A DNA stretch of 64,000 nucleotides. Origin: Pyrenula massariospora. Lineage: Eukaryota; Ascomycota; Eurotiomycetes; Pyrenulales; Pyrenulaceae. Of this stretch, positions 4,001 to 52,187 are shown piece by piece. The notes under the pieces were generated by a model that saw only the letters and a list, made by a program, of their open reading frames with translations, was not told the DNA's origin and ran no database searches. The position numbers and the translations under genes are program-made. Where the stretch lies: positions 2,170,001-2,234,000 of the forward strand of contig JAGFMI010000004.1 of NCBI GenBank assembly GCA_021030905.1, written 5' to 3'. Each line of letters opens with the position of its first letter. Position 1 is the first letter of the stretch.

Positions 4001-5697
4001 TCAAGAAGCTGATGAGGGACAAAACTGCTACCCAGGAACAGTTGGCTCTCTGGGACACCAAACAACTGGCCTTGAAATTGACCGCTAACTCTATGTACGG
4101 CTGTTTGGGATACACTCAATCACGTTTCTACGCCCGCCTCCTTGCAATGCTTACTACTTTCAAAGGACGAGAAATTCTGCGCAGCACAAAGGACCTTGCT
4201 GAAAGCAATTCACTCCAGGTCGTCTATGGAGATACTGATTCGGTCATGATCAATTCGAATGCCAATAGCGTGGCTGCTGCGCTGAAGGTTGGAAACGAGT
4301 TCAAACGATCGGTCAACGAGCGGTACAAGCTTCTTGAAATCGACATCGACAATGTTTTCAGCCGCCTGCTCCTGCACGCCAAGAAAAAGTACGCCGCGAT
4401 CAACTTGATCGAAATCGATGGGAAGTGGCAGGAGAAACTTGAGGTTAAGGGGCTGGACATGAAACGCCGCGAGTACTGCCAGCTGTCTAAAGAAGCCTCT
4501 TCGAAATTACTGGAGCAGATCTTGTCCGGAAACGAACAAGATGTCGTCCTCGAAAACATCCATTCATACCTCCGTGACCTCTCCGAAAAGATGCGGGCCG
4601 GTTCCATCCCAGCGTCGAAATACACCATCTTCACAGTAAGTTAACCGTACCAACTAGACCCGTGCGGCCAACAGACTAACATCCCCTCCTAGAAACTCGG
4701 CAAAAACCCCACCGAATACCCCAACCCGGACTCCATGCCCCAAGTCCAAGTCGCCCTCCGAGAAATCGCCCGGGGAAAGAGCGTCCGCGTCAACGACGTG
4801 ATCTCGTATATTGTCACCTCGGGCGACGACCAGACCCCCTCCTCCCTCCCGCCCCCCAAGCGCTCCTACACCCGCCAGGACGTGCTCAAGCCGGGCTCGG
4901 GACTTCAACCTGATGTCGAGTACTATCTGCTGAAGCAGATCTTCCCGCCCATCGAGCGGCTGTGTGCGCCGGTCCCCGGCACGGACTCGGTGCGGTTGGC
5001 GGAGTGTTTGGGGCTGGATACAAGGAAGTACCAGATTGGTGCGTCGTCGGCGCGGGCGGATGGGCAGGGGCAGGGGGGGGTGGAGGTTTGGCCGCTCGAG
5101 TCGCAGGTGCCGGATGCGGTGCGGTTTAAGGACGCGGCGAGGCTGAGGCTCCGGTGCCGCAAGTGCCGGGGGGAGTGCGAGTTCGAGGGGCTCGTTGAAT
5201 CGATGGGCATATGTACCCCGAGTGGATTGGTGTGTCCGCGGGAGGGGTGCGGGAGTGGGTTTGCGAATATTTCCATTATTGCGCAAATGGAGGGGCAGAT
5301 CCGGGAGCAGACGGCAAGGTACTATGAGGGGTGGTTGGTGTGCGATGAGTGCGGGCTGCGGACGAGGCAGATGAGCGTGTATGGGCACCGGTGTCTGGGA
5401 GCCGCGGGGCGCGCGGATGGGAGCTGTCGCGGGAGGATGGGGTATGAGTATGGGGAGAGGAGGATGTATAATCAGTTGTTGTACTTTGCGAGTTTGTGGG
5501 ATGTGGAGAAGGCGAAGGAGAGGGTGAGGGGGGGGAGGGAGGGGGAGGGGCAAGAGGGGAGGGAGAGGGTTTTGGTGCTGGCGGAGAGGAATAAGGCGGT
5601 TTTTGGGGTGAATCGCGGGGTGGTGGAGGGGTATTTGAGGAAGTGTGGACGGCAGTGGGTGGAGATGGATAGTTTGTTTGCTTTTGCTATGAGGTGA
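1094..5697 (+). CDS. pol1: DNA polymerase alpha catalytic subunit
   Basis: This is the catalytic subunit of DNA polymerase alpha-primase, which extends RNA primers at origins and on Okazaki fragments. Five exons are 1094-1468, 1516-3246, 3293-3850, 3898-4635 and 4693-5697, giving about 1468 residues, normal for the family. The acidic N-terminus [19 protein letters not shown] is typical. B-family motif [11 protein letters not shown] is near residue 864, motif [13 protein letters not shown] near 948 and motif C YGDTDS near 998. The two C-terminal zinc modules begin at CRKCRGEC (about 1289) and CDECG (about 1351) and contact the B subunit. The first intron only keeps frame with a GC donor at 1469; its acceptor is a tandem CAGCAG, so exon 2 may start at 1516 or 1519. 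The last exon switches from C-rich to strongly G-rich coding sequence near 5000-5050. Confidence 0.97.
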
Positions 5698-6409
5698 GGT
5701 GAGGTGGACTAAGACGACATGGAAGGTTGGGGGGGTGGAGTGTCTTTTCTTTTCGGACTATCATAGTGACCGGGTGGGTTGTTGAAGGACAGCCAGCCAG
5801 CCCCTTTTGTGTATGTGTAGACTGGGTAGATGACCCGCGAGCCTGGGTAGTTCGCGTCTATTACCACTGAGCTTAATGGAAAGCTAGTTGCCTCTTGTAT
5901 AACACTACTAATCAGTAGCAAGTTTGATTTACACTTGGCTATCTATCCAATCCCAATACTAGGGGAGAATTTGGGGGGCGGGGGCTCGTTGGCATGCTTA
6001 AGGGGGCTGTGTCCAGGGTATGATATGATTGGGAGGAGAGATATGGAACGGATGTAGGGATATGCAGGTAAGGCGCTCGGGGTGGGGTGGAGATAGAGGG
6101 AAGGGGGTAGCGTATTTCAGTTTCATTGAGGGGAGCTGTGGAAGGAAAAAGAATAACTGAGAAAGAGGGCTAAGTTGGGAGATGAGATGTGGATAGAATG
6201 AAATGGAAGAGACAGAAGGAGGGTGGAGTATGATGGCAGTGAGAATATAATCCTTTTAGGAAGTGAATGTGATATAAGCCGCTGCAATAGGGAAGAGATG
6301 AAGAAAGCGGGTAAGAATAACGAGGACAGCAAGCGGAAAAATGATAGGAAGAGGTGTGATAGATATTACTCGTGTCAACTGCACCAAGAAGTTCCGGCGC
6401 TGGAGCACT
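5698..6409. other. Intergenic region between convergent genes
   Basis: This lies between the stop codons of POL1 and the PPR gene. The plus strand is G-rich with several poly-G runs up to about 6120 (for example around 5970-5985), then A/G-rich. No gene, RNA or repeat family was recognised. Confidence 0.6.
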
Positions 6410-8824
6410 CTACGCTGCTCTAGCAGCCTCCCTATTATCTTCCACGACCTCCGGAGGAAACGACCCTCTATCCTCAACCCTAGGCCTGATGACACTGTCC
6501 ACTACATCTTCGATCCCCCTTTCAGTCTCTTCACCGCCCGTCTCCACGCCCGCATCTTCATCAATCCCCATCCACTTCTTCTTTCCCTGACTCCTCAGCC
6601 TCTTCCGGGCCTGCCTCGCGCTCTCAACCTTCCCATGCCTCTTCTCCCTCCACCCGTCTGCACCCCTCTCCCCTTCCGGCTCCCACTCCGCCATCCGATC
6701 CACCCAATTTACGGCCTTCAACCTGTACTCCAGCAGTTCTTCATGTAGGCCCGGATCAAGCTTATTCGCGCGGTCTCTGTCAAGAACTACGAGATCAACA
6801 GACGACTGCAGAATTTTCGCCAGCTGCCTTGCAGAATCAAGGAAAACGCTATCCGCGGCCCGCGCCTTTCGGTAATCACTGTGCTCATCGTCCTGTGGTG
6901 CAAACGGATCTTCAGGTCTGAACGTCTTGTCGACCCGCCGCCGGGTAGTTAGAAAGACAGGGAAGGCCCTCCGGATCGCACGGATAAGGCTGTTTTTCTT
7001 TGGATCCGGGTCGAAATGCTGTGAATCTTTCTTGTCGGACAACTTGAAGGCATTCTGGCCCGGCGTAATTCCACGTGCGATTTGGAGATAGGTCACTGCT
7101 ATTCTCGGATCGCTAGCCAGAGATGTGTGAGCTTCGTAAAGATCCAATATCCTTGTCGCATTATCGAATACATTGGGATTCAGAAAGTCGCGAACGCACA
7201 CATTCATCGCCATGACGAACGCGAACTGAGTTCCAAGATCTTTGTTGTTGGAATTGAGAAGCTCTTCAAGAACGTCTCCCGCTTCTCTACTTGCACGGGA
7301 CACGTCAAGAAACCGGAAGTATTCCTTGTAGCTTCCTTCGTCTAGAGAGCCAATCTTATATTCCGAGGATGGATCTGTGAAGATCTTGATGTAGTATCTG
7401 CCTATCGGAACCGAGGAAAGGCCTCTTGCTGCTCGTAGACATATTGTGAGAATGCCGTTCCCAGCCTGCACGTAAGTAGACGATGGCTGCGAGCGGTTGG
7501 CTGACTGGACTGTAGATGGTTGCACAGAGTCTGATGTAGCGGCCTCGTACTCTCCTGGCGTAGCCGTATTATCACCTGGGGTTTCCTCTCCCGGTGGTAT
7601 TGCCTGAGGATGCTGCATACCCAATTTTGGTTCAGGTATCCCGGTAGTCTGCCGAACCAGTGGAAAAATATGCTTTGCGTCATCATTGAAAGTCGATAGA
7701 ATGAGATGACCCATGGCTACCACTAGCGGCTCATCAACCCTAAGGTCGCCGGTGCGCCATTTCCTCATAATGTCTTCCCAAACCTTCCGGCCTTCTATGA
7801 CGGTAGTGTTGACCTCGGCGGCTTTCTGTTCAGGATTGAGCTTATCGGTTGCATCCCTACTCAAGTTCTTGATCTTGCTAGAGAATGCTGATAAGATGAT
7901 CGTATACGTCCAAGTATCGGGTGAGTTTCGACCCCTGTCGGGCATTTTTCCAGCCACCCCAAACATGGCGTCGAAGTCTTCAGCTTTCGCGCAAACACCG
8001 ATAACCGCATTTGAGTGGGCGGTAGTTGGCTGACTGCCAGAATTTGGCGCGTCCATCGAATTGTAGATGGATAAAGCTTGTGGAACGGCTTTTTTCCAGG
8101 AGGCATTTTGTGCTAGGCCGCGGAGCATCATCATGTAGGTATATGAATCTGGGCGAATACCGCGTTTTTTCATCTACAAGGTACATGTCAGTTAAAATTC
8201 GAATTCAAACCGATGACGGATACAGCGCACCTGATTGTAGGTAGTGATAGCTTCAGAGGGTCGCCTAGCATGCATAAGATATGCGAGCAAGTTGTTCCAG
8301 CTGACGATGTTCTTAATACCCAGTTTTTGCGACATCTTGAGCAGATCAACAGCTTTGGCTTCTTCATTATCTCTGAGTAGATTTGAGATATGAGAAGCGA
8401 GCCGTAGAGGATCCCTGAGAAACTCTAGCTCCTTTTCCAAGGCCCGTCGTTTGATAGGGTCGCCTAATACATCCCAGTTGAAAGGGGTTTTGGGGGGTTG
8501 CTCTATCTTGAGGGTTTCATCGAGGGTCTTGTTGTTGGCTTCCCTCGCTCTGAGGGTCCGGCGCACCGACTTGGTGATTTTGGTCGAGTACAACACGTCT
8601 GCGCCTTCTCCAGTTTTGGGCTGCTTTCGATAATGACCTTTCTTGAGGACTTCTCGAATTTCCCTTACATGGTGCCCCTTTCTTATGTTCGCCCATGTTG
8701 AGTGGCTTGCCCGCTGCCCTAAAGCAGCAAGCGTGTAGGTCTTGGGTAATTCATGCTCAATTGGAGAGCAGAATAGCACCAAAGTTGTCACTGCGCGTCG
8801 GAAGCATGCCGGACAAGCAAGCAT
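6410..8824 (-). CDS. Mitochondrial pentatricopeptide-repeat (PPR) protein
   Basis: Two exons are 8824-8231 and 8173-6410, joined across a 57-nt intron with an AACTGAC branch site, giving 785 residues. ATG 8824 was chosen because it gives a short basic, hydrophobic leader (MLACPACFRRAVTTLVLF) that looks like a mitochondrial presequence. PPR-type helical repeats are visible around the exon junction, including IVSWNNLLAYLMHARRPSEA, then RPDSYTYMMMLRGLA and a third with DTWTYTIILSAF. PPR proteins bind organellar RNA in processing, stability or translation. The RNA target cannot be told from sequence; CCM1-like rRNA or intron processing is one option. The C-terminus is basic and G-rich at the DNA level. 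Confidence 0.85.
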
Positions 8825-10205: not shown

Positions 10206-11685
10206 CTAGTAATTATTCGGCTGGTTGTCTGTCTCTAAATCGTCAGCGTCAGCTCAATTGTCACCCGTCAACCTGCATGGAAAACTTACGTTGCTGGTAC
10301 ACCTGGCCAGGTTGGCCATAAGGTGAATGGGGGTAATTGGGCTGATAGGTCATCTGCCCGTTGTTTTGCGGGTACACCATCTGACCTTGTTGGCCAGCGT
10401 ACTGGCCAGACACCTGCCCGTCAGCCGGGGCATACCCAATTGGCGGCAGCTGAGGACGAACATTCCCGGGATAGTTGGGAGGCTGTCCAGCTTGTGATGG
10501 GTCCGCTGGAGCACCATCCACTGGGTTGGCCTGTGCAGCTGCACGCTCACGTTCTTCGGCAGCCTTGCGCTGAGACTCTTCCTCCTTCTTACGCGCTTTC
10601 CACTCCTTCCGGATCTCTTTGAACTCTGTTCATGTGAGGGTCAGCAAAGCTGACAGAGCAGGACAACCAAAGAAGTAAAGACGAGATCACGACAGGCTTA
10701 ATCTAGATGCTCAGGATGGTGTGCAGACGGCGTGACACAAGAATTGAGACGAGTCCTCGGGGCTAACCCGATTTGGCAATTTGCGAAAAATCAAAACATT
10801 GGGTCAACACACCTTCAGGAGTTCTCTTTTGGCCATGCGACTGCATAGTTACGTGGGCATTTAAATGATTGAGGGTTCCATATGCCTTCTCGCAACCCTG
10901 CCATCCGCATTTATACATGCGCTCGATTTCCTCATACCGGCGGCGTGGTCGTTTATGCTGTTGCGCCCCGGGTATCGGGACGAAAGAATAGACCTATGAA
11001 ATGACGATATCAGCTCACTGTCCTCAAAGTCATTGCCGACGCGTAGAATCAAAAAGTAAAGACACACCTGGCCAGGGCGTGGTCCTGCGGTCGCAGCTGG
11101 AGACGCGGAACTCACAGTGGTAGCCGGCGAGCTGTACGGTCCTCCTTGCATTGCGTGAGGCGCACCGGGATATTGAGGCCAATCGGGACGCGTCGCATAC
11201 ATCTGGTGAGGCGGGTGGCCCTGATATTGTGACATGTCGTGCCCTTGAGGATTGTACGGCGAGTACGGCGGTGGGTAAGTGGGACTCGATTGCGCGATGG
11301 ATGGATCTATAGGAACGTCGGGGTCAGATTTCACGCGGTTTCCAGATTGATGGTCATTCTGCTGCCCATCTTGTAGGGACATGGACGGACTTGTTGCTTG
11401 TGCCATACTGCCTGGCGTACCCGATGGAGGATGCTGGGCAGGATGATACTGCGGGTGACGCGGTACGTAGTCTGGGAATCCTCCTGAACGTGCCGATGGC
11501 GGGTTCAGACTGTAATCAGACTGCGGCGTATTGGAGCTCGAGATATTCGCGGATCGCACTTCTGGCTGCGGTGTGTATTGCGCACCGGGAGCTTGGACTG
11601 TTCAGACTATTTTCAGAGGCAATCCCAGTGTAGTGGGCACGACTTGCTGACCTGGCTGCGCGTATTCAGGACCGGCTCTGTCCAT
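10206..11685 (-). CDS. con7: C2H2 zinc-finger transcription factor CON7
   Basis: CON7 is a C2H2 transcription factor known in Magnaporthe and other filamentous fungi for conidium morphology, appressorium formation and cell-wall genes. Five exons are 11685-11652, 11597-11068, 10993-10813, 10625-10290 and 10234-10206, giving 369 residues. The N-terminal half is Pro/Gln/Ser-rich (MDRAGPEYAQP onward). The conserved block RRRYEEIERMYKCGWQGCEK leads into one C2H2 finger with Cys217, Cys222, His235 and His241. A charged helix EEFKEIRKEWKARKKEEE follows, then a Gln/Tyr/Pro-rich tail ending NNY. The third intron (10812-10626, 187 nt) is longer than its neighbours. The first exon holds only 34 coding bases. 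Almost 7 kb of gene-free DNA lies upstream, suggesting extended regulation. Confidence 0.93.
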
Positions 11686-14600
11686 GTACTGGCGTCAAAA
11701 CCACCTTGAAGCGCCAGGGACAGGCGACAATCAAGCGCCGGCGACCGTGGCAGTGGTGTTGAGGATCAAAACGCGATCCAAAAATGACGATCGAAGTCCG
11801 ACCTTGGGGAAAGCCCAAGGTTATCCCAAGAGGCCGACTAAGGTGAGACGGTGTAACAGATGGAGCTTGATAAAAAAGCTGACAGGTACCCAAAGCTTGG
11901 GAGAAGAGACGGTGCCAAAGGCGCCTAGTCAGCTTTAGTCTCAGGGAATGCCTTGCAGGCGCGGCGTAGTGTACAAGTATCAGGAGGAGTTGGGGCTGCG
12001 GACAGGAATGCGAGCAACGTGCGGCCTGGTATAGCGACCGGGTTTCTATTGCGTTTGTGCGTTGCCCAAGATAGTAGAGCGGACGCAGTCGAGCTGGCAG
12101 ACTACTGGGCCCTAAAAATTTAGAGCGAAGGGAAACCAGTGCGAGTCTAGTAGAGTGTGTCTTGGGACTTGAGGGGGCGATTTAAAGAGCGCCGAGCGGA
12201 ACCTTTAGCAGCGGGTCTATGGCTCCACAGCTCCCTATTCAATGATCCCTGATGGCAGTAGCCACCCTAGGCAGATAAGGTTTGACCTGCTTTTGGGAAA
12301 GGTCGAAGACGTATGCTTTAATTGCTTGTGATCTCCGGTCTGGCGAGAGGAAATTCAGGAGTCTTCGAGACGGAAGACCGACTCCTGATGCGTTATGCGA
12401 TAATCTTATTTTGTTCTTTTGTCTCTGTTTCTTCGCTTGTGGGCAGTGGCACCGAAGGTGGAGGTCCTGGCTAATGTTGCACCCAACGAGGTCCTGGCCC
12501 CCTCCTGGTCGCCCCTCAGACGAAGAAAGAGGCGAAGACCGGGGGTCACCACCGGCGCAAAGACCAAAATCGAGGCTAGTTTCGATGACGGATAGATTAC
12601 GGCAATTGGAGTCGTCGTCGCCTTCACAGGCAATATTTGTTCACCAACCGTCCGTTTTGGCAGGCGGCGGGCAGGCTCGTGCAAGTTGACCCCGATAGCC
12701 GGGGATGGCACGCTGGGGCAAGGGACAGGGAGCGAGCGAGACCCGGAAGTGGATTCCTTGGACTGAGGAGAAATGAAGAGGGGGGCCGAATCAAAGGGAG
12801 GGTGAGTCGCAATTTTCGGAGTCGCTGGATCGTAGAGAGGCAGCAGCCGCGAGCAGAGGTTAGTGGTGGAAAGGCTCGGCTGGGGCGGGCTGTAGATCCT
12901 GGCGCGTTACAAAGCTAGGAGGCAAAAGGAGGCTGACGGTGCACCTCAGTGGCTGGACTGTCGAGCTCTTCTGTTTCTTTTTTACGCTGACTCTCCGCCA
13001 GGTCGCTTTCGCAGGAGGGTGGTTGGGCGAGTGTCAATTCAAAAAAGTGGAGATCTTGCTCGGATGGAATCCCTAAGAACGCGGTGTTGACAAAGATCTA
13101 CAGGCGCACTGACTTGACAGCGGGTCTGGAGAGTCAAGGTCGCCAACGTGCTGCGATCCGGGAGTTGCCAGCAGGATGACGGTGATGCTGGATTATTGGG
13201 CGGACCGCGATGAGGATGGCGCGATCTGACGAGGAGGAATCAGGTTGCGGATGATTGTGGGAACGAATTTTTTGTCGGAGGAAGAGGAGGAGGCTGATGA
13301 GCCTTTTTTTTCGCTACGGGCGGCCAGAGGCGACACTCGAGTTGGAGCGGCCGTCCGTGTGTCTGTGTCGCCGGGCGGGAAAAGCTTTCTTCCTGCCACC
13401 CCCTGGCCCCCCCGGGCAGACGGGGGAGTCCTCACTGTAGGGTACGGAAATAATTCAAGACACCACCAACCAGTTCACCATATATTGTCACCATTTCACC
13501 GCCGACGACGATGCACTTGATCTCATTTTTCCGTAGTCGCCCGCGACCACATAACGCGTGAAAGCTTCACGGGCAAGGCTAGTGCCGGTCTACGAAAGTA
13601 TCATCTTCCCAGGCAGGCATGTACGTTAAACATGCACACGGCTGAGCGCTACATGGAAGACTCCGCTCGAGCTGCAGGCCCGCCCTCATCGATCTCTGGT
13701 GGGCAAGCCATCTGATACTCTCGTCCAGTGCCACAGCCTTGTCGGAGTGCGTCAGCCGTGTATCCGCTGCCCAGACAGGAGTGTTGACGGTGTGGGCAAG
13801 ACGGCTATTTGATACTGGATTCTGGTGTCATTGCTCACCCAGTGCTCCAATGAGGAGGATGCTCGACGACAGCATCTAGCCGGGACTCGGCCACCCTCGG
13901 CCTAGAGTGGCATTTATGGAGCCATGATACCTTCTTCTTTCATGTCTTGGGCGCTATTCCGTGGATATAATTTGTGAACACGAGCAAATCAAGTGTCAGG
14001 GGCGCTACATCACTGCATTTGTCTTGCAAATTCTTATTGTCTTATCGTAACCCTCTTTCTCTCACCGCAAGATGTTCCCTCAGTCGTTCCCGCCATCCAG
14101 CTTCCCTGTCTTATTCTTGGGAGAACGTCGGGGCAAAGCTGCGTGGAAGGGGCAAGATCTGACCCCTGCCTGCGAGCGATGGGCCTAAAGGAAATCAAGC
14201 TTTGTGATGGTTGCCGGGCCTTAGTTGTTCTAGCCGGCCTGCCAAAAATGCAGCAGCTGTATACCAGACTTACATAGCATACGTTTTTTGCCAATCGTAC
14301 GATCCCGAGAAATGGCGAGCTGTTTCCGTGTTCTCCCTTTCTGCCGGTCCGCTCGAGCCTCCTCTCGAAGCGCCAGATCCCCATTTTTCCTTGGGAGCGT
14401 CTCACCCCGTCAATGTGCATCACGATACATCCCACCGCAAGTAATCACCTGTCGCTCGGGTCTTGATCCCCCATCGATAGGCGCCATCACCAAGGATGTG
14501 GATGGGCGACTTCACCAAAAGAAGGCCAACGCATGCCAAGCTCCGTTGGCTCCAGCCACGTCGACGCTCCACTGGAATGGCACATGTTGGAAGCGGGCGT

Positions 14601-17600
14601 ACGTGTGCAGATCGGGAAACAAGGTCAGGTTGGCGAGGGAGACCCCGGGACTCCTGATTATCATGGCATTGTTCATGACAATAAGAATCGTGTGTCTCGG
14701 GCAAGGCCGACATTGACAGACCCTGGGTGGTAACGTGAACCCCTCACCGCCAGCCATGCCCGCGGCAGGCCATGTATACGGTACTTGCATGTGAAGCAGA
14801 GAGACATCATGCAAGGCTCTTGGCCCCAAACGTATTCTGTAGATCTCTGATATTTCGATGAATATGGAGCGTTGGGTTGTGTACGGGAGGGCGCATCGCA
14901 GCCATCAATCACTGGGGATCCCAAAACGCCCCCTGGTGGAGCACGGCCGACGGGATGGACGCAAATTGGAATTTTCTTGGGATGTAACTGATGATCAACG
15001 GGTTTTCCCTCTGGATGTCATGCCAACTACTCGAGCTGTCTGCCGCCCCCCTTCCATCGACTCGACTCCTGCCCCACGCGTCGATCACGAGGCTTGGGCA
15101 CTCGGAGAAGGCGGGCTGCAGCCTGCACGCGAGATTATTCAGATGAACCGCCGTCCTTCTGATTTGCACAATCGTTCATGCTCGTCGCCGCCTCCGTGGA
15201 TGCGGCGATAGCGACTATTTCAATGCCTAATATATGCACGTCTCCGGCGCTGCTCACCGCTGATACTCGCATCCTCTCTTCATTTGGACATCGTACTCTG
15301 CGCATGGGAATTCGATACTCTGTCCAGCCGCGCTTAGCTAATAGCTATGCCCAATCCTTGCCTCTCTGACGCTTGCAACCTGTCCACGCGTGTGGCTGCT
15401 GGATCAGGATGTAGCTTTACAGACGGCTCCTTGGGCTTCCTTCGAGGAACAGACGACCGCATACTTGCTGCACGATAACATCACCAATTCCCAATATATT
15501 TAGAGGGGCAACAAAGCTTCGATCTCGCGACCAAGTCTCATGTCTTATCGATGCCTCGCACCCAATTTACCCGACCTTTAATCTCTCGACAGAGGCCCTG
15601 GTCTAGATCCCCCATGCACGAGCCCCACCATTCCGTTTCCTGTCAGAAGAAAGCAAGGACCACTGCTGCATGAGAAAACCTGGAATTGCACATGCGTTTG
15701 AATCACTTCAACCACCTTTCGAGGCCTCTCCAAAAAATGAACAACTGTCTGAGGCCCCTGTCATCGACCGGCTTCTCCACAGTCATCTCGTTTAAAGCGC
15801 TCCTACACCGTATTTTGACCCCTGGACGCAATTATCGATAACACGCGCTATTAAGCCACACACGCTTGAGAACGCTACCGTCCTCCCGCCCCCCGTGGGA
15901 TGATCATGACTGTTGGCATTATGCTTTCTGGCAAGGTGGTGGCACACTCTTGGGCATGGTGAGCATCCAGCCGAGTCCCGCACCAATTGGCTGGCATTTG
16001 TCAGGTGACTCCATGTGCAATGCGGTTTGACTTCATTGCCGCCGGCGCTGGCACACGGTCTTGTTTGAGAGTTGGCTTTTCGAGTCGTACCCGCATGCAT
16101 AGTTCAATATTGACCTCCCGGGAGTTTGCTCGCCAGCATCACTTGCTCGTCTATCTAGAAAGACTGACTCGAGGCGACATGCTATCACATCTGCATACAT
16201 GCAAAGCTTGCGACGTCGGCAAAACAAGTCGCCCTCTACTTACCTTGCAACACAATCGTCAAGACTCGCGGTCTGCATCCTGTCGTGTCTACATTGCCTA
16301 GATCTTTATTTTTCAACATGGTTCTCAATCGGTCTATTCTTCGGGAGGCAAAGCATGCAGAAGCAGCCGCCTCGACTTTTACGACCTTCACTTTCATCTG
16401 TGATTTGACGCGACATTGCATCCCCATCGGGCATCAACCAGCAGCAACTAATGTCTGATTCAGATTTGCGTCCTTGAAGGGGTCAGGCGGACATCGTCGG
16501 ATCGAGAATCAATCTCTCCAAGAGGTGACTCTGCAATCCTCTATTGTGGCGGTGTACATCAAGACAGCGATGAACACAGCTTGGCAAGAGAAGAAAAACA
16601 TGGTTGAGAAGTCCATCCCCAAACTTTGGCCCACGACATTGGCACATACCCACAGGTCCACCGATTGTTCTTGCCTCAATCGCAAAGCAGGCCCCGTCGA
16701 TCAAGTTCCACCTGTTGAAACTCCTTGATCCGATGAGAAAATCTCCATGTCAAGCTGACCCATGAGATTTCCCTATTCGCGGCATTGTCTAACAACAAAC
16801 ACACCTTGCATACCCTTCTACCCTCTTCATTTGTCTTTCCTACCCTTCTTTCATTACGACCTCTTAACCAGAAACAACCACCCGGATTGCTTGATATCTT
16901 CTCTACACTGCCCCTGTTCCGGGGTCCTGCTCTTTTTTCATTTGTCCCTTGCCAATTTTCAAATTGGCAAATGATTTTGCAACCTAGAAGCAAGGTCTAA
17001 TACCTAACGCTGCACATAGAAGACTTTTCACCTGTTAATAGCAATATCATGAGAAAGATTAGATCAGATCGAAGCATCGCACTCTATACAGAATAAAAAA
17101 TACATCATCCAAGCTTATGTCGATCGAATTTCTCAAAACTGCATCTACGTCTTCGTTCGCCGTCTCAGGATCTCGTAAAACGATACACTTTGGCCCAACC
17201 CAACTTCTATACTCTAAATGCGCTTCGCAATAATGAGATGATCCGGACCAAGCCCTTAACCGACAAACACCTCGCAAAGCAGAATAGAATACGTAGCGCT
17301 AACGCTTAAAATCATACCTGTGAATGATACTCGCATGCCATCCGTGCTCGTAGTCCAACAACCCATTAACCCGTTCCGTCCGGCCCTTCGCACCGCCTGG
17401 CCTGTCGCCTGGATCCTTGGCCATCTTCCGATCTAGACCTCTCACTTGAACATCGTACATACAAACACCTCCCCCTAAGTAAATCGCGAATAATGAGCGA
17501 TACCTTCCCATTACAACCACCTACCCATCCATTCACGCCTATCATGCGTACCAACACCCTCCTCCCTCCCTAGGTACAACTCCCTAGATACCGCTCCGCC

Positions 17601-18641: not shown

Positions 18642-21119
<2,478 letters not shown>

Positions 21120-23948: not shown

Positions 23949-24640
<692 letters not shown>

Positions 24641-41293: not shown

Positions 41294-42763
41294 ATGTCAT
41301 ACGCAAACGGAGATATGCAAGCCGCACAACTTGACGATGCTTCAGACGTTGAAGAAGAAGCGCTGGTGAATGATTACAAAGAGCAAGTGACTTTCGACGA
41401 TACAGCAAGCGACCTTGGTAGAGTGAACTCTCTGGGAGGACAAGCACAAGACCTACAAGCCCAGCTCGCTGCGGCAGCGACGCCTTTAGAGTATCAAGCC
41501 ACGTTAGAGACCAAATTCGCGAGCTACGACAACTACTGCAGTCTTTTCCATTATATTCTTAATTCCGACGGACCAGTGGATCTTGAAGTGCCAAATGTGA
41601 GAAGCTCACCAGACGTCTAGATGATGCTAACGTATAAAAAGTACTACTGGGCCTGGGACGTCATAGACGAGTTCATCTACCAATTCGAGTCCTTTTGCAG
41701 ATACCGAAATCGTGTCGCAAGAACGGCACCTCACGATGAAGACGCTACCCTTCTCAGAGAAAATCCAAATACCTGGGGCTGCTACTCCGTCCTTAACGTG
41801 CTCTATTCCCTCATCCAACGCTCCCAAATCAACGAACAACTAGCAGCCATGAAACGCAACGAGGACCCTGCCCAAGTCGCCGGCGAATACGGCTCCCGCC
41901 CCTTATACCGTATGCTAGGCTATTTCTCTATTATTGGTCTCCTCCGCGTCCACTGCCTGCTAGGCGACTTCAGCCTCGCGCTCAAAACCCTCGACGATAT
42001 CGAAATGAACAAAAAGGCCATGTTCGCTCGCGTCATGGCCGCCCACTTCACAACCTACTACTATGTTGGCTTCTCTTACATGATGCTCCGCCGCTACGCC
42101 GATGCCATACGCATGTTCTCCCACATCCTTATCTACGTCTCCCGAACCAAGAATTTCCAAAAGGGTTCCAACTCCTACGACGCCATCGCGAAGAAAAACG
42201 AGCAAATGTACGCTCTGATCGCGATCTGCGTCGCCTTCCACCCCACCCGCCTCGACGACACCATCCACTCCGCCCTCCGCGAGAAATACGGCGAGCAATT
42301 CGCCCGCCTCCAGCGCGGCGGACCCGACGCCCTCCCCCTCTTCGAAGAACTCTTCCGCTCCGCCTGCCCCAAATTCATCACCCCGACCCCACCCGACTTC
42401 GACAACCCCTCCCTCAACATCGACCCCGTCGACCACCAGACCGCCATCTTCATGGACGAGGTCCGCACCACGCTCTACAACCCGACCGTCAAATCCTACC
42501 TCAAGCTCTACACCACCATGGACCTGAAGAAGCTCTCGTCTTTCCTCGAGGTCGAGCCCGAGAAGCTGCGCAGCTGGCTGCTGGTCAATAAGCAGCGGAG
42601 TCGGCAGATACGGTGGGGCGAGGGCGGCCTGCTGGAGGGCGAGACGGTGAATACGAGTGAGTTGGATTACGCGGTGGAGGGGGATCTGATCCATATTAGC
42701 GAGGCGAAGGTGGGGAGGAGGCTGGTGGATTGGTATCTGAGGAATTTGGCGAGGGCTTATTGA
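41294..42763 (+). CDS. Translation initiation factor eIF3 subunit L
   Basis: eIF3L is a PCI-domain subunit of the eIF3 scaffold on the 40S subunit. It is present in filamentous fungi and absent from baker's yeast. Two exons are 41294-41596 and 41642-42763, with a 45-nt intron, giving 474 residues. It starts MSYANGDMQAAQLDDASDVE. Conserved stretches are YYWAWDVIDEFIYQFESFCR, NTWGCYSVLNVLYSLIQRSQ, YRMLGYFSIIGLLRVHCLLG and the PCI/winged-helix end TMDLKKLSSFLEVEPEKLRS. The coding strand is C-rich from about 41760 to 42560 and G-rich from about 42600 to the stop. Confidence 0.97.
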
Positions 42764-43033
42764 GTTTGGGTTCGTGTTGTTGGTGGCGGAGTTTTTCGAT
42801 TCGTCAGGGGGTCGTATGCGTATGGCCAGGTATCTCCTTGCCGGACTCTTTAAAATGGGCAAATGGTCATAATTGAGCGACTTGAGAATTCAACAATATG
42901 ACTTGTGAGATCCTAGTACGGTAACTTCTCGGGCTGGCATTTAGACACAGGATACTGATTCAAGTTGTGGTCATCCAATAAGGCTGGTTGTAAGCGCGAA
43001 ACAAATGCCATTGGGTATCTAAATTGTCCACTT

Positions 43034-44575
43034 TCAACTCTCGTCCATCGCATCCGGATCCGCCTCCCCATCCGCATCAACCTCCCCCTCTGCATCCCTC
43101 TCTCCATTCCCCTCTACCTGCCTCTCCTCCACCCCCTCTCTCACATCCTCTTCAACCTCCTCTTCCTTGAACGGATCTTCCATCTTGCTAAACACTTCAT
43201 CCCGGAACACGCTGTCCATCTCCGCCTGGTAGCTGGCTCGCTTGTACACCTCCTCCTCGTTCGGCTCCCGCACAAGCAAGTGCACCTTGTCGACGTGATC
43301 TGCGCCGCCAGTTCTGGAGTCGTCCCTGCGTTCGGGTTTCAGCGTCATGCGCTGGCCGACGGGGTAGAAGTATGCCCCCTTTGGCCGGCCGGGGGACGAG
43401 TCGACGATGGAGAGGGCGACAGACCGCCACCGGTCATCTGCGATGCCCATTTTGCTGGGCGTGTAGACGCGTTGGCGGTCGAAGGTGAAAACGGGGTTTC
43501 CTTCTGAGTCGGTCTCATAGCCTGAACGATCGTCTTTGGCTGGGTTTGTCGAGTCCAGTTTTGATTTTATACTCGGGACCGTGGAATAACTGCGCGGGAT
43601 CATGAAGTCGAGTTCGTAGGGTTCGGCTCCAGGGTCGGCATATAAATCTGGATGTTGTTGGTAGAGTTCTACTTTGGCTTGATGTGCTTTGACAACTGCT
43701 TCGTCGGAAATGGCGTGTAGAAGGGAGACGTCAATTCGATCATCGCGTTTGCCGTTGTGCGCCGGTAGCGGTGGCTTATCAAATTTGACGGTAATATAGC
43801 TACCTGAATCTGTACCGCCCTCAAGGTCGGGGAGAACAGGATAGTAACCGACTGGGGTGAGTTTTGGATTGTCTGGATGCACGGGGTTCTTCCAAGCTTC
43901 GATCTCAGCATTTGATGGGGGAGGGCCTCGAGTAGCAGAGTCTGTGGATGATTGTTTACTCTCGGGGTAGGCAATGTTAAAGCCTTTCTGGATATGTCTT
44001 CTGATGTTCACAGGATCATTCTTCGCGATAGGAGGCTCTTTCTGCTGGTTCAGAGCCTTTGCGGAATTCTTCCGCAAACCTGAGCCCCTAACACCGAGAC
44101 CAGCTTGCGCATTTTGGCTAGAGGAGATGTACTGTGTGCGTCGGAGAAAGCTGACATGATTGCTCTTGGAGTTCGCGTTTTTGAGTTGCTCTGGCGTTGC
44201 CATCAGGGCCAGGTCCGCCGGGTCGAGGGGAGGTGGGTTCTCGGGCGCCAGAATAGCTATGGACATTCTATTAGTGGCTTTTCTATATGTGCGATCTGAA
44301 GCGTGCGCCAACTCACCGCTTTCATCACCCAAAAAGTATCCAGGTATTCCAATCATGTCAATGGGCATCCCACCCTCAGCGTCAACTTCTATGTTCGGTT
44401 CCTCCTTTTTGAGCAGTGACGATGCATATTGCGTGGTCAAATACTGGTCAATTCCACCGGTATCAATATTCAAGAGCTTTGGAAGCATTGGTGGCGGCGG
44501 TAGGTCATTTCGGTATCTGGTCGAAACGACCATGTCCTGCTTGTACGCAGCTCTTGAATCGCTTGCTGCCGCCAT
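43034..44575 (-). CDS. paf1: RNA polymerase II-associated factor Paf1
   Basis: Paf1 is the core subunit of the Paf1 complex, which travels with RNA polymerase II and is needed for H2B ubiquitination and H3K4/K79 methylation. Exons are 44575-44317 and 44256-43034, giving 493 residues. ATG 44575 was chosen as the first in frame. Diagnostic sequence is STRYRNDLPPPPMLPKLLNI, EEPNIEVDAEGGMPIDMIGI, the repeat-like SAILAPENPPPLDPADLALM and VSFLRRTQYISSS. The C-terminus is acidic and Glu-rich, as in the family. The only intron (44316-44257) is 60 nt, a multiple of three, with no in-frame stop, so retention would insert 20 residues. Confidence 0.95.
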   Translation of the reverse strand: MAAASDSRAAYKQDMVVSTRYRNDLPPPPMLPKLLNIDTGGIDQYLTTQYASSLLKKEEPNIEVDAEGGMPIDMIGIPGYFLGDESGELAHASDRTYRKATNRMSIAILAPENPPPLDPADLALMATPEQLKNANSKSNHVSFLRRTQYISSSQNAQAGLGVRGSGLRKNSAKALNQQKEPPIAKNDPVNIRRHIQKGFNIAYPESKQSSTDSATRGPPPSNAEIEAWKNPVHPDNPKLTPVGYYPVLPDLEGGTDSGSYITVKFDKPPLPAHNGKRDDRIDVSLLHAISDEAVVKAHQAKVELYQQHPDLYADPGAEPYELDFMIPRSYSTVPSIKSKLDSTNPAKDDRSGYETDSEGNPVFTFDRQRVYTPSKMGIADDRWRSVALSIVDSSPGRPKGAYFYPVGQRMTLKPERRDDSRTGGADHVDKVHLLVREPNEEEVYKRASYQAEMDSVFRDEVFSKMEDPFKEEEVEEDVREGVEERQVEGNGERDAEGEVDADGEADPDAMDES

Positions 44576-45860: not shown

Positions 45861-48800
45861 GTGCGCAGGGATGTTCTAGAGATCTTTTCCAAGTATGCTA
45901 AGAATATAATAGAGAATAGTCGATTCGATAACGACTCTGAGTCAGGCGACAATTCTGAAGACGCTGAGAGCGAAACTGAAGATGTGTCAAGTAGTCAGCC
46001 TGGCGATTCTGAGAGCGGAAGTGACAGATCGGTCGATCCTGATCATTGGATCAAGGACAAAATCATTGATATTCTGAAAGATGTCCGCATTAACAATCAC
46101 GACAACGCAAGTATGAGCACGAAACCTTTGGCTCAACCTTCCTTCGCAACAGCAATAGGTGTTGATCAAAATTCGTTCGTGGGAGGGAGATCTATTGCAC
46201 AACCTTTGATGTTCAACCCCGGTCTTCAAATTACTGGGATTAAAGAAATTATCAGGCTTCCTCTGCAGCCAACAGATGCTGCGGCGATTGCTGACGTCGC
46301 CCATCAAAGCCCCTTCGGCAAAGGTGAACAAACGGTAGTCGACACCAGCGTCAGGAATTCAAATGAGCTCAATTCAGATCACTTCTCTTTCTGTAACCCG
46401 AGGTGGTCCACATATCTTGAGGATGTCATCGTCCCAAAGGCACTTCAAGGCCTTGGCTTCGACAGACAAGAGTTTACGGAGAATGTAGTCGCCGAGCCAT
46501 ACAAACTTCTCCTGTACGAAGAAGGCGCGTTTTTCCGTCCTCATCGTGATTCGGAGAAAATGCCGGGTATGTTTGCCACTCTAGTCGTGAGTCTACCGAG
46601 TAGACACCTCGGGGGTGAAGTGATCCTCAAACACAAAGACCAAACAGTTGTGTTCGCAACAGGTGGTGAAGACAAAGAATGGGAAGGACTGAAGTTTGCT
46701 GCTTGGTATGCGGATGTTCAACACGAAGTTAAACCTGTGACTGAAGGTGGACGCTTTGTTATCACTTATAATCTTATCCGCAAGCCTAAGGACTCCGCCG
46801 GCTCCTTATTTCCCAACCCGGGACAGCTACTCACGGACTTGAAGTCTGTTCTGCGGAAATGGACCAAGGAGGACTCTCCGAAAGCCCTTGCTTATCAGCT
46901 GTCTCATCAATATACAGGTCCCAGTCTTTCTTTTGACGCTCTAAAAGGCGATGACAGAGCCCATGTGCGCCTGCTTAGGCAAGCGTGCTTCGAGGAAGGC
47001 TTCCAGATTTGTTTAGCAATCTTGGAAAGAACTGTTGAGGGAGACGCTTACGGAGAGTATGGTAATGACGATGACTCTGAGGGCGAAGGGGGCGAGCTGT
47101 CTCTTTCAACAATCATCTGTGGATACAATGGACAGAATGCCGAGGAGCACATCTCATCGTCTCTGGACTTCGACAAGGAGTGGTTGATGCAAGACGACAT
47201 TTATAGATCCCGCGACCCAGACTCTGAATTAGAAGAGGAATTTACAGGTAATGAAGGCGTCCCAGGGACACAACGTTACAGAGACACTGTAAGTTCGCTG
47301 TTTCGACCTCCACTAATATTTCATTACTTTGCAATTTGGCTCTATCTCCAGTATCAGCCGTTTGTTCATACGTACTCGTTGGGCTACGCAGAGTCGCTTC
47401 GATCACACTGATTCCAATTCAATTTTCAAAGTGCTAAGCTGAGCAAATGCAGGTTGTATTTCTCACACCTAACAACCAATTCTTCAACATCTTTACAAGT
47501 TCTCAGAGTCACGGCTTTGATAAGATGCGTTGGCTCCGCCGTCTTGAAGAACAGCTTCCCAAGTCCACGCAAGTGCAAAATCTGTCTCAGAGAGATCTGG
47601 TCAATATGAGCCACGTAAGACAAATTTGCGCCGCCATGATCAACGAGGACTTCTATCCCGGGGGCAGAACTGGTTACTATACGTTCGATAATCAGAAAGT
47701 CGAGCAGCTGTCGATCGTAATTCGCGTGCTGGGACATGTGCTCCACTTAAACAGCGTCAGAGGTGGCGAGCATCCACCAAATTGCGATGCTAGGGAACTG
47801 ACTGTACGCTCAATCGAGGCAATAGCACAAAAGGATCAGCAGAGAGCCTGTAAAGAAGTTGGACAATTGACCAGCGACTTTGGATTCAAAATGTTGGGGG
47901 AGAATGCGTAAGTACATGTCGCTTTAATAGCTGTCTGACCTAATGAGACTTGTAGTGCTGAGAAAATTTATGGCCGTGCCCAATCAGCTGCGGCTCATTG
48001 GAATATTTTGGAGGAACTTTATGGCAGGATCACCGAATACAACCCCACAGACTTGGAAGACTTCTACTCCTGGTTTGCAGACAAGGTAGCAGCTTTCTTT
48101 GTACATGGAGAGCCTCATACTTCAGAAGATGGTTATGCGTTGGCTAGCATGGTGATGTCAGAGCCTAGATTTAAGCACGGCGTGTATGGAAAATCAGGGC
48201 TTTCGCTGCACATAGGACCACCGGGTGCACTAGAAAAACCGTCCGGCTTACATGATACAATCTACGGTCTCCTTGATCGCAGTGCATCGGCAACTCAGTT
48301 GGTGTTAGCTTTTCTCAAAGAGCTGGGAAGCAGATTACCCGATGGCGAAAAACAAGGTACGTGAGCGCAGGATAGGCATTCATTTGCAGCCCAAATTCCA
48401 TTCCCATACTCTCGAAGACGAGCTAATAGATGCAAAGGCGATTATCCAACCCCCACAGACCGTCTTCTCTTCTCTAACGTTTTGCGTGGTTGGTGCCAAA
48501 AATTGCGTTCAGGGGAGGCGAAGCCCCTTCCAAGCGACGAGGACCTCTTTTCACTGACTAGACTTTGTCTTCGCCATGATGGTGACGGTCTCGAATTTTT
48601 ATGGAGCAACCTGACTATCAACATCACGAGAACTCACTCCGATGAGCTACAGGGGATCCTTCTCAGCTACATTCGGAAAATGTTATCCCTTGCCCAATCA
48701 GACCACCAACTGGATCGCGCTCTCTGCACTGAAAATGGCCGGTCACTGTGCCTCGCCACCTTTACTTGCTTCATCCGCAACACCACCACCTCCAAACCCA

Positions 48801-49417
48801 CCAAGCCAACAACCTGGGCTCGCAATGTACCCCTCATGATGCGCAACTGCATTAAGCCAGTCATTGCGAAGGCCCCCGCCGGGATTGGCGGAAAGCGTGA
48901 TTACAGTTGGCTCAACACTCCCCGCGCATGCACCACCGGCTGCGCCCGGGTCGCAGACTTCATCAAGTCCAAGACGCTCGCCTCGGAGCAATTCAAGATG
49001 GACCAACACACTCGGAGCCATATCATCAAGAGGCTGGAGAAAACCGCGTTTGACGTTGAGATCATCCGGTCGGTGAAGCCGCACCAGTTGAAAGTGTCCA
49101 AGACAAACAGGGAGTATGAGTGGGAGCTGGGTGCGTGGCAGAGACGGATGGACGGCGGGAAGAAAGCCGTGGCGCAGGTGCGGGATTTGAACGAGAAGCT
49201 TCTGCGTGAGGTGTTGGGGGATCGGTATGAGGATATCATTGCTTTCAAGGACAATGGGGATCTGGAGGCTGGGGTCTTGGGCGAGAGGGATATCAACACC
49301 GTTCCCGGGCGTGGTGATGATGGGAGGGTGTCCACCGGGAAGAAGAGAAAAGGGGGAGAGATGGAGGAGGGGGATGAGAGAGCGCCCAAGAAGCCGATGA
49401 TCATCGATCTTACCTGA
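45861..49417 (+). CDS. Large fungal 2-oxoglutarate/Fe(II) dioxygenase domain protein
   Basis: Exons are 45861-47288, 47453-47907, 47956-48360 and 48430-49417, giving up to about 1091 residues. The N-terminus is uncertain: this frame opens at a GTG, and its first ATG is at 46113. After an acidic low-complexity start comes a prolyl-4-hydroxylase-type core (about 150-310 in this frame). It contains AEPYKLLLYEEGAFFRPHRD with the metal-binding HxD (228-230), the strand PGMFATLVVSLPSRHLGGEV, and a distal His with an oxoglutarate-binding Arg in DVQHEVKPVTEGGRFVITYN. The remaining 780 residues form a large helical region with a basic tail EEGDERAPKKPM near the end that looks nuclear. Related proteins are widespread in Pezizomycotina with no known substrate. 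The third junction has a competing 33-nt intron, so that border is tentative. Confidence 0.75.
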
Positions 49418-49898
49418 GAGAAGCACCTCGTAATGCTTCTCCAGGTCATTCACTGCTACGATCTAGCAAGAAGGATTTAGAAGACATTTCTGGAGACGGG
49501 TTGAGCTTTTCGTTGGAAAATGCTAGAAAAGCTCGCATTGTTCTTTATGCTCGTAGTGTCAGCTGAATGGGTCGTGGTGGCGCAAAAGCAGAGCGTATTC
49601 ATGGTCTGGGTAACGGAGTTGGTAGAGCTTCCGAGTTCCAAGGTTCTTGTCGCATTGTTGAAGGAGGAAAGGCTGTCCATTTTCTCTTGGATAGGGCATG
49701 CAGGGGCCGCCACTCGCAGGAGTTGTCTTGAAACTCCCGCTGCCTGCATCGGCACAAAATCAGAACTTACATTCTAACCCCAGAATCGCAACCTTAAGCT
49801 CGGCGATCTCGCCAGAACTTCTCGTATGCATTACTTATCAAAACGCAACAAAGACACCATTTAAAAAACCCCTCCGCCCCCTGATCCCCCGACTCTCT
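49418..49898. other. Intergenic region between convergent genes
   Basis: This is 481 bp between the oxygenase and Arp8 stop codons. A small open frame (49520-49777) has a hydrophobic start but no family resemblance. The plus strand turns C-rich from about 49860. Confidence 0.55.
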
Positions 49899-52187
49899 CT
49901 ACCAAGCCCACATACACTTATACGCCAGCAACCTTCCCCCCAACCGATCATACTCCATCTGCGTAATCCAACTATCATTCGTCACGCTCAGCTTCCCAAA
50001 AACACTGCCCCCCTTCCACGTCACCACCTGCGGATCCAGCTCCCTCGGCGGCCTTCCAATCATAATCTCCTTTGAGAAATTCGGCCGCAGCGCGTGCAGC
50101 CTCTCCTCGAGATAGCTGTAGAAGCCGGGGATCTGGGACCCGCCCCCGATGAGCATGACGCCGCCGAGGAAGTCGCGGGTCTTGCGCTCGTCGCCGCTGG
50201 ACGCGTAGCTGATGGAGGTGAGGATGGCGCTGTCGAGGGGGAAGATGGGGAGGCGGTCGTCTTGGTATTCGAAGGGGAGGGCTTCGGGGGCGTCGTCGTT
50301 TTCGGGCGGGTTTGCCGGGTCGATGGCGGGTGTGCCGGCGGGTTGGGGGGTGCCCTCGAGGTCTGGGGCTGGCGTGTTCCTCTCCGAGGCGGCGCCGTTG
50401 ATGTCGAGGTCTTTTCTGTTTTTCAGCACGTGGAGATTCGGCGTGGGTTTCGTGCGCGGGGTGAAATAGCTGGTGTCTCCGAGGGATCCGTTTGTTGTGG
50501 TATCTGCAGTGCCAGACGCTGGTGGACATGTTGAGATTATGTCGGCTTGGGCTGCAGAGCGAGGATCGTTCCTCCTCTTGTCGTACAGATCGCGAGAGCT
50601 TTCTAAAATGGAGTGTCGGCCATCCAGTTTGCCTGAGTTGTCGAAAATCTTCGGGCGGAAGAAGCCTGCCGGGGCAAGCAAAACCTCGTCGTAGCATTTG
50701 AAGAAGAATTTGCGGGTATCTTGACCGGAAACACGAACGTGAAAGTCATAAGCTTGAACAGATACCTCTGCATCACTCAGAGTGCAGAATTTCTGTTTCA
50801 ATTCCTCTGCCAGCAAGAAATCGTATCGTCGATTGAGATCGATGTCAGCGTATGGGAAGTGGTCGAATAGCATCATCTTGATAAAGGTAGTTGTCACGTC
50901 CATCCCCCCGTATTTGATGTTGACACGAGAATCCTCTATACACATACCATCCTCAACACAACAAATCGATGTCTTTTGGGCGCCAATGTCAACGATGCAA
51001 GCCTGAGTAAAACCAGCACCAAACGATGATGCAAGTCCTTCTTGGAAGAAACAAACTCGGCCAAATCCGAGATCTTTCATAATCATTTCGAGCATATCTA
51101 CAACAAATGTCCGCTCATAAAGATCTGGAATAACAAAAACACACCCGTAGGCAGACCATTGGCTCCGAGTTTTCAAAGGGACCCCAAGTTGAGTCCGCAC
51201 AGCATCTGTGATGATGAGAGCGATGTCGCCGTATAACTGTCGTTTGGAAGTGTAGTCACGCTCATTGCAGCAGCCGTGACGAATTGGCCAGAATAGCCTA
51301 TACCTAGGCTTCGAGTCATCGGGTATCCGTAGTGCTTCCTTTCCTGTGATGTACTTTGGCGCACTTTCTGGCCGAGGTGGCAATTCTGTCCAATCTATAC
51401 GGTAAGGGTCATTGTGTTCAGAAATAGTCTCTGGAGGTGTTCTTCTGTTGTAGTTGATGACCATCTCTTTCGAGTTGGGTAACACGCGTCTCTTGTTTGC
51501 GCGCATCCGTACCTTGAGATCTGCAGACATTGCTGTGTACTCGCTTGCAAAGTCATCACCAAACAATTTTTCTGGCTCTACCTCCGAGCCATCGTCAAGT
51601 TTTTGTCTCTTAGGGCTAGGCTCAGCATCAACTAATTCAGATTCGGATCTCTTGGCTTTCTTTGCAATGACCATAGGCACTGTTTTCGGCAAAGCATCGC
51701 TCGCTAGACCTATCCGCATGTTTTGGCTTCCAAGGTGAATGACAATAACTTTTGACCCAGCGGCGTTTTGGCTGGCGAGATCGCCGCCAGCTTCCCCGAT
51801 ATCTGGTGCATCGCCCATTTCAACATCTGCGTCCATCTTTCCCAAAGCTAGTGCCCGATCTCGATCTTTGGCTTCTTTTGTCATGCGGTTTCGAGCCTCT
51901 TCTTGCTGTAGCCGATAAGCAAGGATTTGATCATCGCGCTTGAGGTAGTCTCTGGGGACAAGGGCGTCTTTAGTAGGACCAAGATAGTTTATGGCGACAA
52001 GAGACATACGTATAGTAATTCTTCTGGTTAATCGCGTTGATCTGAGGCCAGGTGCTGAGATCCATATTGTTATCGGTCCGTTCCAGACCTGCAGAACATT
52101 AGTGATATTTCTTCGCTGACCGGAGGCTTGCTCTGTGACCGTACCTTCCTCCCTCAGGAGCGCCTTGCCCGACTTCTTGCCAACCAT
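49899..52187 (-). CDS. arp8: Actin-related protein 8 (INO80 chromatin remodeller)
   Basis: Arp8 is part of the nuclear actin/Arp4/Arp8 module of INO80 and binds linker DNA. Exons are 52187-52145, 52088-52010 and 51951-49899, giving 724 residues. Splicing yields GLERTDNNMDLSTWPQINAI followed by NYYTDYLKRDDQ, the typical Arp8 start. The actin fold is recognisable from VIVIHLGSQNMRIGLASDAL, ACIVDIGAQKTSICCVEDGM and GGVMLIGGGSQIPGFYSYLE, with a long disordered insertion between about residues 520 and 610. Both introns and the exon between them are also open in another frame, so an unspliced message would read through. Coding-strand composition flips from C-rich to G-rich near 50060-50120. Confidence 0.96.
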   Translation of the reverse strand: MVGKKSGKALLREEGTVTEQASGQRRNITNVLQVWNGPITIWISAPGLRSTRLTRRITIRMSLVAINYLGPTKDALVPRDYLKRDDQILAYRLQQEEARNRMTKEAKDRDRALALGKMDADVEMGDAPDIGEAGGDLASQNAAGSKVIVIHLGSQNMRIGLASDALPKTVPMVIAKKAKRSESELVDAEPSPKRQKLDDGSEVEPEKLFGDDFASEYTAMSADLKVRMRANKRRVLPNSKEMVINYNRRTPPETISEHNDPYRIDWTELPPRPESAPKYITGKEALRIPDDSKPRYRLFWPIRHGCCNERDYTSKRQLYGDIALIITDAVRTQLGVPLKTRSQWSAYGCVFVIPDLYERTFVVDMLEMIMKDLGFGRVCFFQEGLASSFGAGFTQACIVDIGAQKTSICCVEDGMCIEDSRVNIKYGGMDVTTTFIKMMLFDHFPYADIDLNRRYDFLLAEELKQKFCTLSDAEVSVQAYDFHVRVSGQDTRKFFFKCYDEVLLAPAGFFRPKIFDNSGKLDGRHSILESSRDLYDKRRNDPRSAAQADIISTCPPASGTADTTTNGSLGDTSYFTPRTKPTPNLHVLKNRKDLDINGAASERNTPAPDLEGTPQPAGTPAIDPANPPENDDAPEALPFEYQDDRLPIFPLDSAILTSISYASSGDERKTRDFLGGVMLIGGGSQIPGFYSYLEERLHALRPNFSKEIMIGRPPRELDPQVVTWKGGSVFGKLSVTNDSWITQMEYDRLGGRLLAYKCMWAW

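Follow-up and report, generated by a model that had tools for sequence, protein, structure and literature searches.

One 64-kb stretch of DNA from Pyrenula massariospora (positions 2170001-2234000 of contig JAGFMI010000004.1, hereafter the window, in a genome of 37.8 Mb and 33 contigs) raises the question of why the coding strand of many genes turns from C-rich to G-rich shortly before the stop codon. The initial annotation had placed such switches by eye in ten genes of the window and had named several other genes as free of them. We scored the window with a matched filter, the value of G-C in the right 300 bp minus that in the left 300 bp, and regarded each C-to-G score of at least 100 as a focus. 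The filter detected 11 C-to-G foci with scores of 104-240, centred at 4957, 6723, 29014, 30088, 31198, 37079, 39457, 42525, 43326, 49071 and 50108, and the maxima in 20 first-order Markov simulations of the window were 75 (C-to-G) and 77 (G-to-C). The extremes of the 200-bp skew were -0.79 at 36801 and +0.71 at 37201, and the GC content at 37001 was 0.68, compared with 0.51 window-wide. All ten switch points placed by eye were recovered, eight of them within 26 bp (for the DNA polymerase alpha gene pol1, 4957, or 5048 with 500-bp arms, against 5000-5050 by eye; for eIF3L, 42525 against 42580), and the eleventh focus, the intergenic one at 30088, had been absent from that list. Four of the genes named as switch-free were located and scored low (dbp2, a DEAD-box gene, 20; thi20, 29; tyr1, 34; rictor, 42), in agreement with the initial annotation. 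The C-to-G switch is real and strong, and it extends beyond the window.

The wider sample consisted of the window and an additional 260 kb (324 kb from 12 contigs, 20 kb of it AT-rich). It contained 46 C-to-G foci against 30 G-to-C peaks with scores of at least 100, and 17 against 4 with scores of at least 160. Because 27 of the 30 G-to-C peaks were located no more than 900 bp from a C-to-G focus, a zone which makes up 22.5% of the sample, these peaks are mostly the edges of C-to-G structures. Foci were found on 10 of the 12 sampled contigs, at an average density of one per 7 kb. The AT-rich stretches L008 (GC 0.31) and L020 (GC 0.23) had no foci; they lie in a genome otherwise near 0.50 GC, as in genomes with repeat-induced mutation. 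The gene content and the short introns look like those of a filamentous ascomycete. The gene models (145 in total) were obtained with a small gene finder built for this purpose, with no annotation used, and the gene-end counts, which exclude the two AT-rich stretches, refer to 93 genes whose coding sequence is 450 bp or longer and whose 3' end is complete. When 23 open reading frames (ORFs) outside the window were compared with Pfam, 17 matched a family at E <= 0.001, supporting their strand (one of the 17, L023:887-2461, matches only under curated cut-offs), and six were accepted on coding score alone (L013:8772-9764, L021:6259-7671, L016:5643-7283, L010:1518-4295, L017:3557-4909 and L024:6916-7299). 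Note that the foci were selected on skew; the sets not selected on skew are the 54 ORFs of the stop-aligned plot and the 28, 19 and 29 genes used for base composition.

Thirty-three of the 46 foci were inside gene models, and 25 of these 33 were in the final three tenths of the gene, which speaks against random placement within genes. In a plot aligned on the stop codon, for which 54 of 79 ORFs were chosen by coding score and not by skew, the skew was about -0.2 at -800 to -650, reached +0.35 in the final 50 bp and was near 0 by +50 to +100; this is the negative-to-positive change that the initial annotation had proposed to look for, and its description of a strand-specific switch within coding sequence near gene 3' ends was borne out. 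Twenty-one of the 54 ORFs had a focus no more than 1500 bp upstream of the stop codon, 18 of them at 198-388 bp before it (mean 280). In the 27 gene models scoring at least 100, the median position of the switch was -295 from the stop, and the median lengths of the C and G arms were 400 bp and 348 bp, respectively. Gene fronts scored at least 100 in 8 of 95 cases, all in genes also scoring at the 3' end. The transition at the aligned foci spanned about 200 bp, with a GC content of 0.62 at the centre and 0.50 beyond 1 kb, and 18 ORFs had a GC content at third codon positions (GC3) of 0.82 near the switch. Because a C-to-G switch is unchanged by reverse complementation, the direction of transcription is linked to its location but not to its sign, and each focus consists of one centre and two mirrored arms.

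The main predictor of the switch was the orientation of the neighbouring gene, which came out of a comparison of convergent with tandem gene ends that had been suggested earlier. For gaps no longer than 1000 bp, scores of at least 100 were obtained at 17 of the 28 convergent ends, compared with 2 of the 19 tandem ends (Fisher; p = 0.0007). The counts over all gaps were 20 of 38 and 6 of 48 (p = 0.0001), and the effect was weaker in the part of the sample beyond the window (11 of 22 and 2 of 15, p = 0.035). At least one focus was present in 13 of the 14 close convergent pairs, and both partners had a focus in four. A measure that does not depend on a maximum, in which the third-position G-C at 350-600 bp from the stop is subtracted from that of the final 250 bp and the threshold is >0.3, gave 17 of 28 convergent against 3 of 19 tandem ends (p = 0.003). 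By this measure 7 of 29 tandem genes with a gap of more than 1000 bp also showed the switch, some of which may have convergent neighbours that were not predicted.

By our own reading of the window, all ten genes noted earlier are convergent, and the pairs are pol1/PPR, b561/sugar transporter, a predicted gene/nitrilase, MFS/an O-methyltransferase-like stretch, eIF3L/Paf1 and oxygenase/Arp8; two partners are focus-free, namely the predicted gene (at 35286-36342, without a Pfam match) and the O-methyltransferase-like stretch. The nitrilase gene was missed and the sugar transporter gene was split by the gene finder, so that both of these positives are outside the 28 and the 19. The MFS gene was counted as tandem (gap 1461) although the minus-strand O-methyltransferase-like stretch lies downstream of it, and the predicted gene at 35286-36342, read here as convergent with the nitrilase gene, was counted as tandem with a gap of more than 1000 bp. 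For the arm, G-run and composition measures, Arp8 was given a manually assigned stop at 49899, and the gene-end counts kept the wrong stop of the model; Arp8 scores above 100 with either stop.

The bias acts at the DNA level, being seen in third positions, introns, non-coding DNA and amino acids, and it favours one base per strand. At the four-fold degenerate sites of the 28 convergent genes, the frequencies of A, C, G and T were 0.26, 0.26, 0.20 and 0.29 in the body more than 1000 bp from the stop, 0.18, 0.46, 0.22 and 0.14 at 350-600 bp from the stop, and 0.12, 0.21, 0.51 and 0.16 in the last 250 bp, whereas the 19 close tandem genes were flat (0.25, 0.24, 0.23 and 0.29 in the last 250 bp). 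Within 200 bp of the centre of the skew-selected foci, four-fold C was 0.58 on the left and four-fold G was 0.64 on the right, compared with 0.24 and 0.23 far away, and near the centre the C arm was about as strong as the G arm. The non-coding bases at foci behaved likewise (C 0.43 and G 0.11 at -200 to -101; G 0.40 and C 0.14 at 100 to 199), introns shared the bias, and codon positions 1 and 2 shifted in the same way in 18 ORFs. Amino acid usage in the last 250 bp of convergent genes differed from that in the body, with more Gly (10.4% vs 6.5%) and Glu (9.9% vs 6.1%) and less Pro (3.8% vs 6.1%) and Asn (2.9% vs 4.6%). The ln preference over A/T was 1.59 (1.19-2.01) for G and 0.45 (0.06-0.83) for C in the G arm, and 1.08 (0.69-1.45) for C and 0.64 (0.35-0.93) for G in the C arm; that is, both arms combine a general GC bias with an extra preference for one base.

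The anatomy of the foci is settled for the sample; their cause is not. The explanation that we regard as the best, tentative and unproven as it is, is that biased gene conversion acts in a strand-asymmetric way around sites of breakage at the ends of convergent genes. The centre of a focus would be a preferred site of DNA breakage, either in meiosis or through torsion or collision of convergent polymerases, and the break would be repaired from the homologue. The 3' overhang would be the top strand on the left of the break and the bottom strand on the right, and the overhang strand would gain C in both arms if mismatches with a template-strand G (T.G, A.G and G.G) were corrected to the template more often than those with a template-strand C (A.C, T.C and C.C). 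This rule would act on top of a general GC bias, and convergent ends would be favoured because cohesin or axis proteins, torsion or polymerase encounters would be concentrated at them. All three elements, namely the break, its repair and the rule for mismatches, are what we infer. Mirrored arms and a central GC peak, both of which were observed, are what a break-centred process would predict. The foci also share with conversion hotspots a GC content that is highest locally and decays over hundreds of bp to about 1 kb, and a like action on coding and non-coding DNA. The proteins encoded in the genome include a match to the Spo11 family and matches to the HORMA domain, which shows only the presence of such genes.

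Some parallels to gene conversion are found in yeast. According to PMC3020949, yeast GC3 fits a conversion-tract model with GC higher towards gene ends, and breaks are described as practically excluded from coding sequence in Saccharomyces cerevisiae; the word "skew" is absent from that paper. As in the GC-biased conversion near meiotic breaks portrayed there, GC is raised over hundreds of bp around a point and is seen at third positions near gene ends; unlike it, the gain here is strand-specific and absent from gene starts, and it is centred within coding sequence close to the 3' end. According to PMC4530585, the budding yeast axis protein Red1 accumulates at convergent 3' ends, frequently as two peaks, with more of it on the side of the weaker gene. 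The foci resemble these meiotic axis and cohesin sites in their convergent order, their position near the stop and their number of one or two per pair, although the yeast sites are a protein-binding pattern that is not known to leave a mark in base composition, and the yeast breaks are elsewhere. The analogy would thus support the location and not the chemistry. Among the open-licence PMC papers, we found no description of a C-to-G switch at convergent gene ends.

A number of observations weigh against the gene conversion explanation. A hotspot of GC-biased conversion of the usual kind should favour G and C equally on a strand, which is not the case here. Eleven of the 28 convergent ends had no focus, 13 of the 46 foci were outside gene models, and a plot aligned on the start codon showed no such switch at gene starts. 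The C arm is longer in the sense orientation, the arms thus being incompletely symmetric about the centre, and the G arm ends at a median of +89 past the stop (interquartile range 15 to 162, 27 models). PMC4530585 places yeast breaks mainly at promoters and says that axis sites inhibit breaks within about 800 bp, and in Zymoseptoria, according to PMC5844332, hotspots are in coding regions, yet biased conversion is weak or absent.

That the G arm stops near the gene end, and that the gene order is convergent, would also be expected from selection for transcription termination: a G-rich coding strand before the gene end would promote R-loops or polymerase pausing, which would be most important where a gene faces an opposed neighbour, and the upstream C-rich stretch would prevent premature hybrids. 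Positive GC skew at human gene 3' ends is reportedly linked to R-loops and transcription termination, with a G-rich coding strand at gene ends and a suspected role of close neighbours, as here. The initial annotation had hinted at this link, and the hint fits the G arm; it is silent on the C arm, the comparable strength of which is not predicted by termination. Here, moreover, most of the G arm is coding sequence and the C arm comes before it, and the clusters of G runs expected of an R-loop terminator were not found. In 26 of the 27 positive genes, G runs of at least three numbered 318, fewer than the 368 in 30-bp block shuffles, a G-quadruplex motif was present in only 6 of the 26 G arms, and there was no extra RNA structure, the folding energy being like that of the shuffles. 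The amino acids are also changed, which would be costly for a codon-level signal. We consider termination unlikely, yet it is the leading alternative to gene conversion. A mutational process, in which error-prone synthesis or base damage would act on DNA exposed by convergent transcription, with opposite strands exposed on either side of about -300, would agree with a bias that is strand-specific and acts at the DNA level. Cytosine deamination or the usual transcription asymmetry should, however, raise T on the G-rich strand, and instead of an excess of G + T along the transcribed strand, four-fold T falls from 0.29 to 0.16 in the G arm. Transition and transversion rates differ in most mutational processes, whereas the losses of A and T were about equal in the G arm (ln -0.14, -0.48 to 0.15), which weighs against deamination and the usual transcription asymmetry. 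The loss of T exceeded that of A in the C arm (ln 0.38, 0.08-0.68), a small pointer the opposite way, hinting at more transitions. Such a mutational origin appears unlikely to us.

Jumps of GC skew from negative to positive at a point are also known from replication origins and CpG-island promoters, and the centre of a focus might accordingly be an internal start site, that is, a divergent or antisense promoter or a site of replication initiation, with which the C-rich-then-G-rich sign would agree. The ordinary gene starts of this sample, where a CpG-island promoter should show the switch, are without it, and the foci are tied to gene 3' ends. The skew does not keep its sign over kilobases on each side, as it should around an origin, and arms of a few hundred bp are too short for replication forks. 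The ratio of observed to expected CpG was only 1.09-1.13 at foci, compared with 0.91 in focus-free genes, and no central motif was found at the foci beyond mixed C/G words such as CCGG. We regard an internal start site as quite improbable.

Other candidates were rejected. Repeat-induced mutation lowers GC, and the AT-rich L008 and L020 carry no foci. If codon choice at the level of translation were responsible, gene order would be irrelevant, and the bias is shared by introns and non-coding DNA. Selection for RNA hairpins was rejected on the difference between observed and block-shuffle folding energy, which was +0.9 (standard error 1.1) at 26 foci and -1.5 (standard error 1.3) in focus-free genes (25 of 44 genes). 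We also rejected the idea that one break site, located in the gap, gives rise to two phases that mirror each other: the distance from the switch to the gene's own stop was independent of the intergenic gap (rho = -0.02, n = 17), and in the C9 and C14 pairs neither the gap nor the partner contained a second switch.

The individual foci of the window vary in the extent of their arms. The last-exon focus of pol1 (model 1094-5697; Pfam zf-DNA_Pol; score 138) is at 4600-5790 on the plus strand, with a C arm at about 4600-4957, the switch at 4957 and a G arm to about 5790, downstream of which the top strand is G-rich over most of the gap to about 6377. The focus at the 3' end of the PPR gene (minus strand, stop 6410; PPR_2; score 107) is at 6405-6730, with the coding-strand G arm from the switch at 6723 down to about 6405 and almost no C arm. 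The CDH-cyt/cytochrome b561 gene (plus strand, stop 29314; CDH-cyt and Cytochrom_B561; score 164) has its focus at 27950-29414, the C arm extending from about 27950 to the switch at 29014 and the G arm to about 29414. Between this gene and the convergent sugar transporter gene is the intergenic focus at 29557-30589 (centre 30088; score 217). It is C-rich on the left, and its G/A-rich right side contains a degenerate tandem repeat of 22-bp units at 30201-30461; this G/A-rich repeat, taken as 30201-30519, is the right arm of the focus. The last-exon focus of the sugar transporter gene (minus strand, stop 31047; Sugar_tr; score 104) is at 31000-31540, with the switch at 31198. The last exon of this gene is adjoined by a near-gapless palindrome at 31573-31660 (44-nt arms, 80% complementary), of which no second copy was found in a search of the genome.

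The highest score, 240, belongs to the nitrilase focus at 36780-37860 on the minus strand (CN_hydrolase at 37074-37757; last open frame ending at 36863), in which the coding-strand G arm extends from the switch at 37079 down to about 36780 and the C arm up to about 37830. The frame of the nitrilase gene changes in a run-rich G/C stretch at 37074-37300 of the minus strand, CN_hydrolase being matched at 37074-37757 and the likely end being in another frame at 36863-37300; the change may stem from misassembly of a G run, from an intron or from a true frameshift. The focus of the MFS transporter gene (plus strand, stop 39832; MFS_1; score 198) is at 38903-39952, with a C arm at 38903-39457, the switch at 39457 and a G arm to 39952. 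The O-methyltransferase-like stretch downstream of it consists of pieces in several frames at 40147-40837 of the minus strand, and is perhaps a decayed gene; its Pfam match, Dimerisation at 40367-40507 (E = 4e-5), has 23.7 bits, below the cut-off of 25.6, and the remaining pieces were recognized by eye. The eIF3L focus (plus strand, stop 42763; Paf67; score 171) is at 41788-42832, with a C arm at 41788-42525, the switch at 42525 and a G arm to about 42830, and the Paf1 focus (minus strand, stop 43034; Paf1; score 127) is at 43017-43420, with the switch at 43326, a coding-strand G arm down to about 43030 and a short C arm. The focus of the oxygenase gene model (plus strand; score 117) is at 48600-49420 in the last exon (48513-49417), with the switch at 49071; Pfam 2OG-FeII_Oxy_3 is matched at 45861-47411 and the last exon has no Pfam match. 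The Arp8 focus (minus strand, stop 49899; Actin; score 151) is at 49734-50565, with the coding-strand G arm from the switch at 50108 down to about 49734 and the C arm up to about 50565. Apart from these sharp foci, the region 11000-19000, with little predicted coding sequence, has a broad and milder skew that does not resemble theirs (G-rich at about 11200-13400 and C-rich at about 15000-18700).

The foci may record a hidden strand-specific process of DNA repair or recombination at convergent gene ends. If the recombination explanation is true, the break sites of a non-model fungus could be mapped from base composition alone, the breaks would be at convergent gene ends and not at promoters, and conversion would distinguish C from G on each strand, which is outside the usual GC-biased model. 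If the termination explanation is true, a widespread signal in coding sequence would separate opposed genes. Either way, codon use depends on the orientation of the neighbouring gene, as does the final stretch of a hundred or so amino acids in many proteins of this genome, and this neighbour-dependent composition is relevant to the prediction of genes, to studies of codon usage and to tests for selection.

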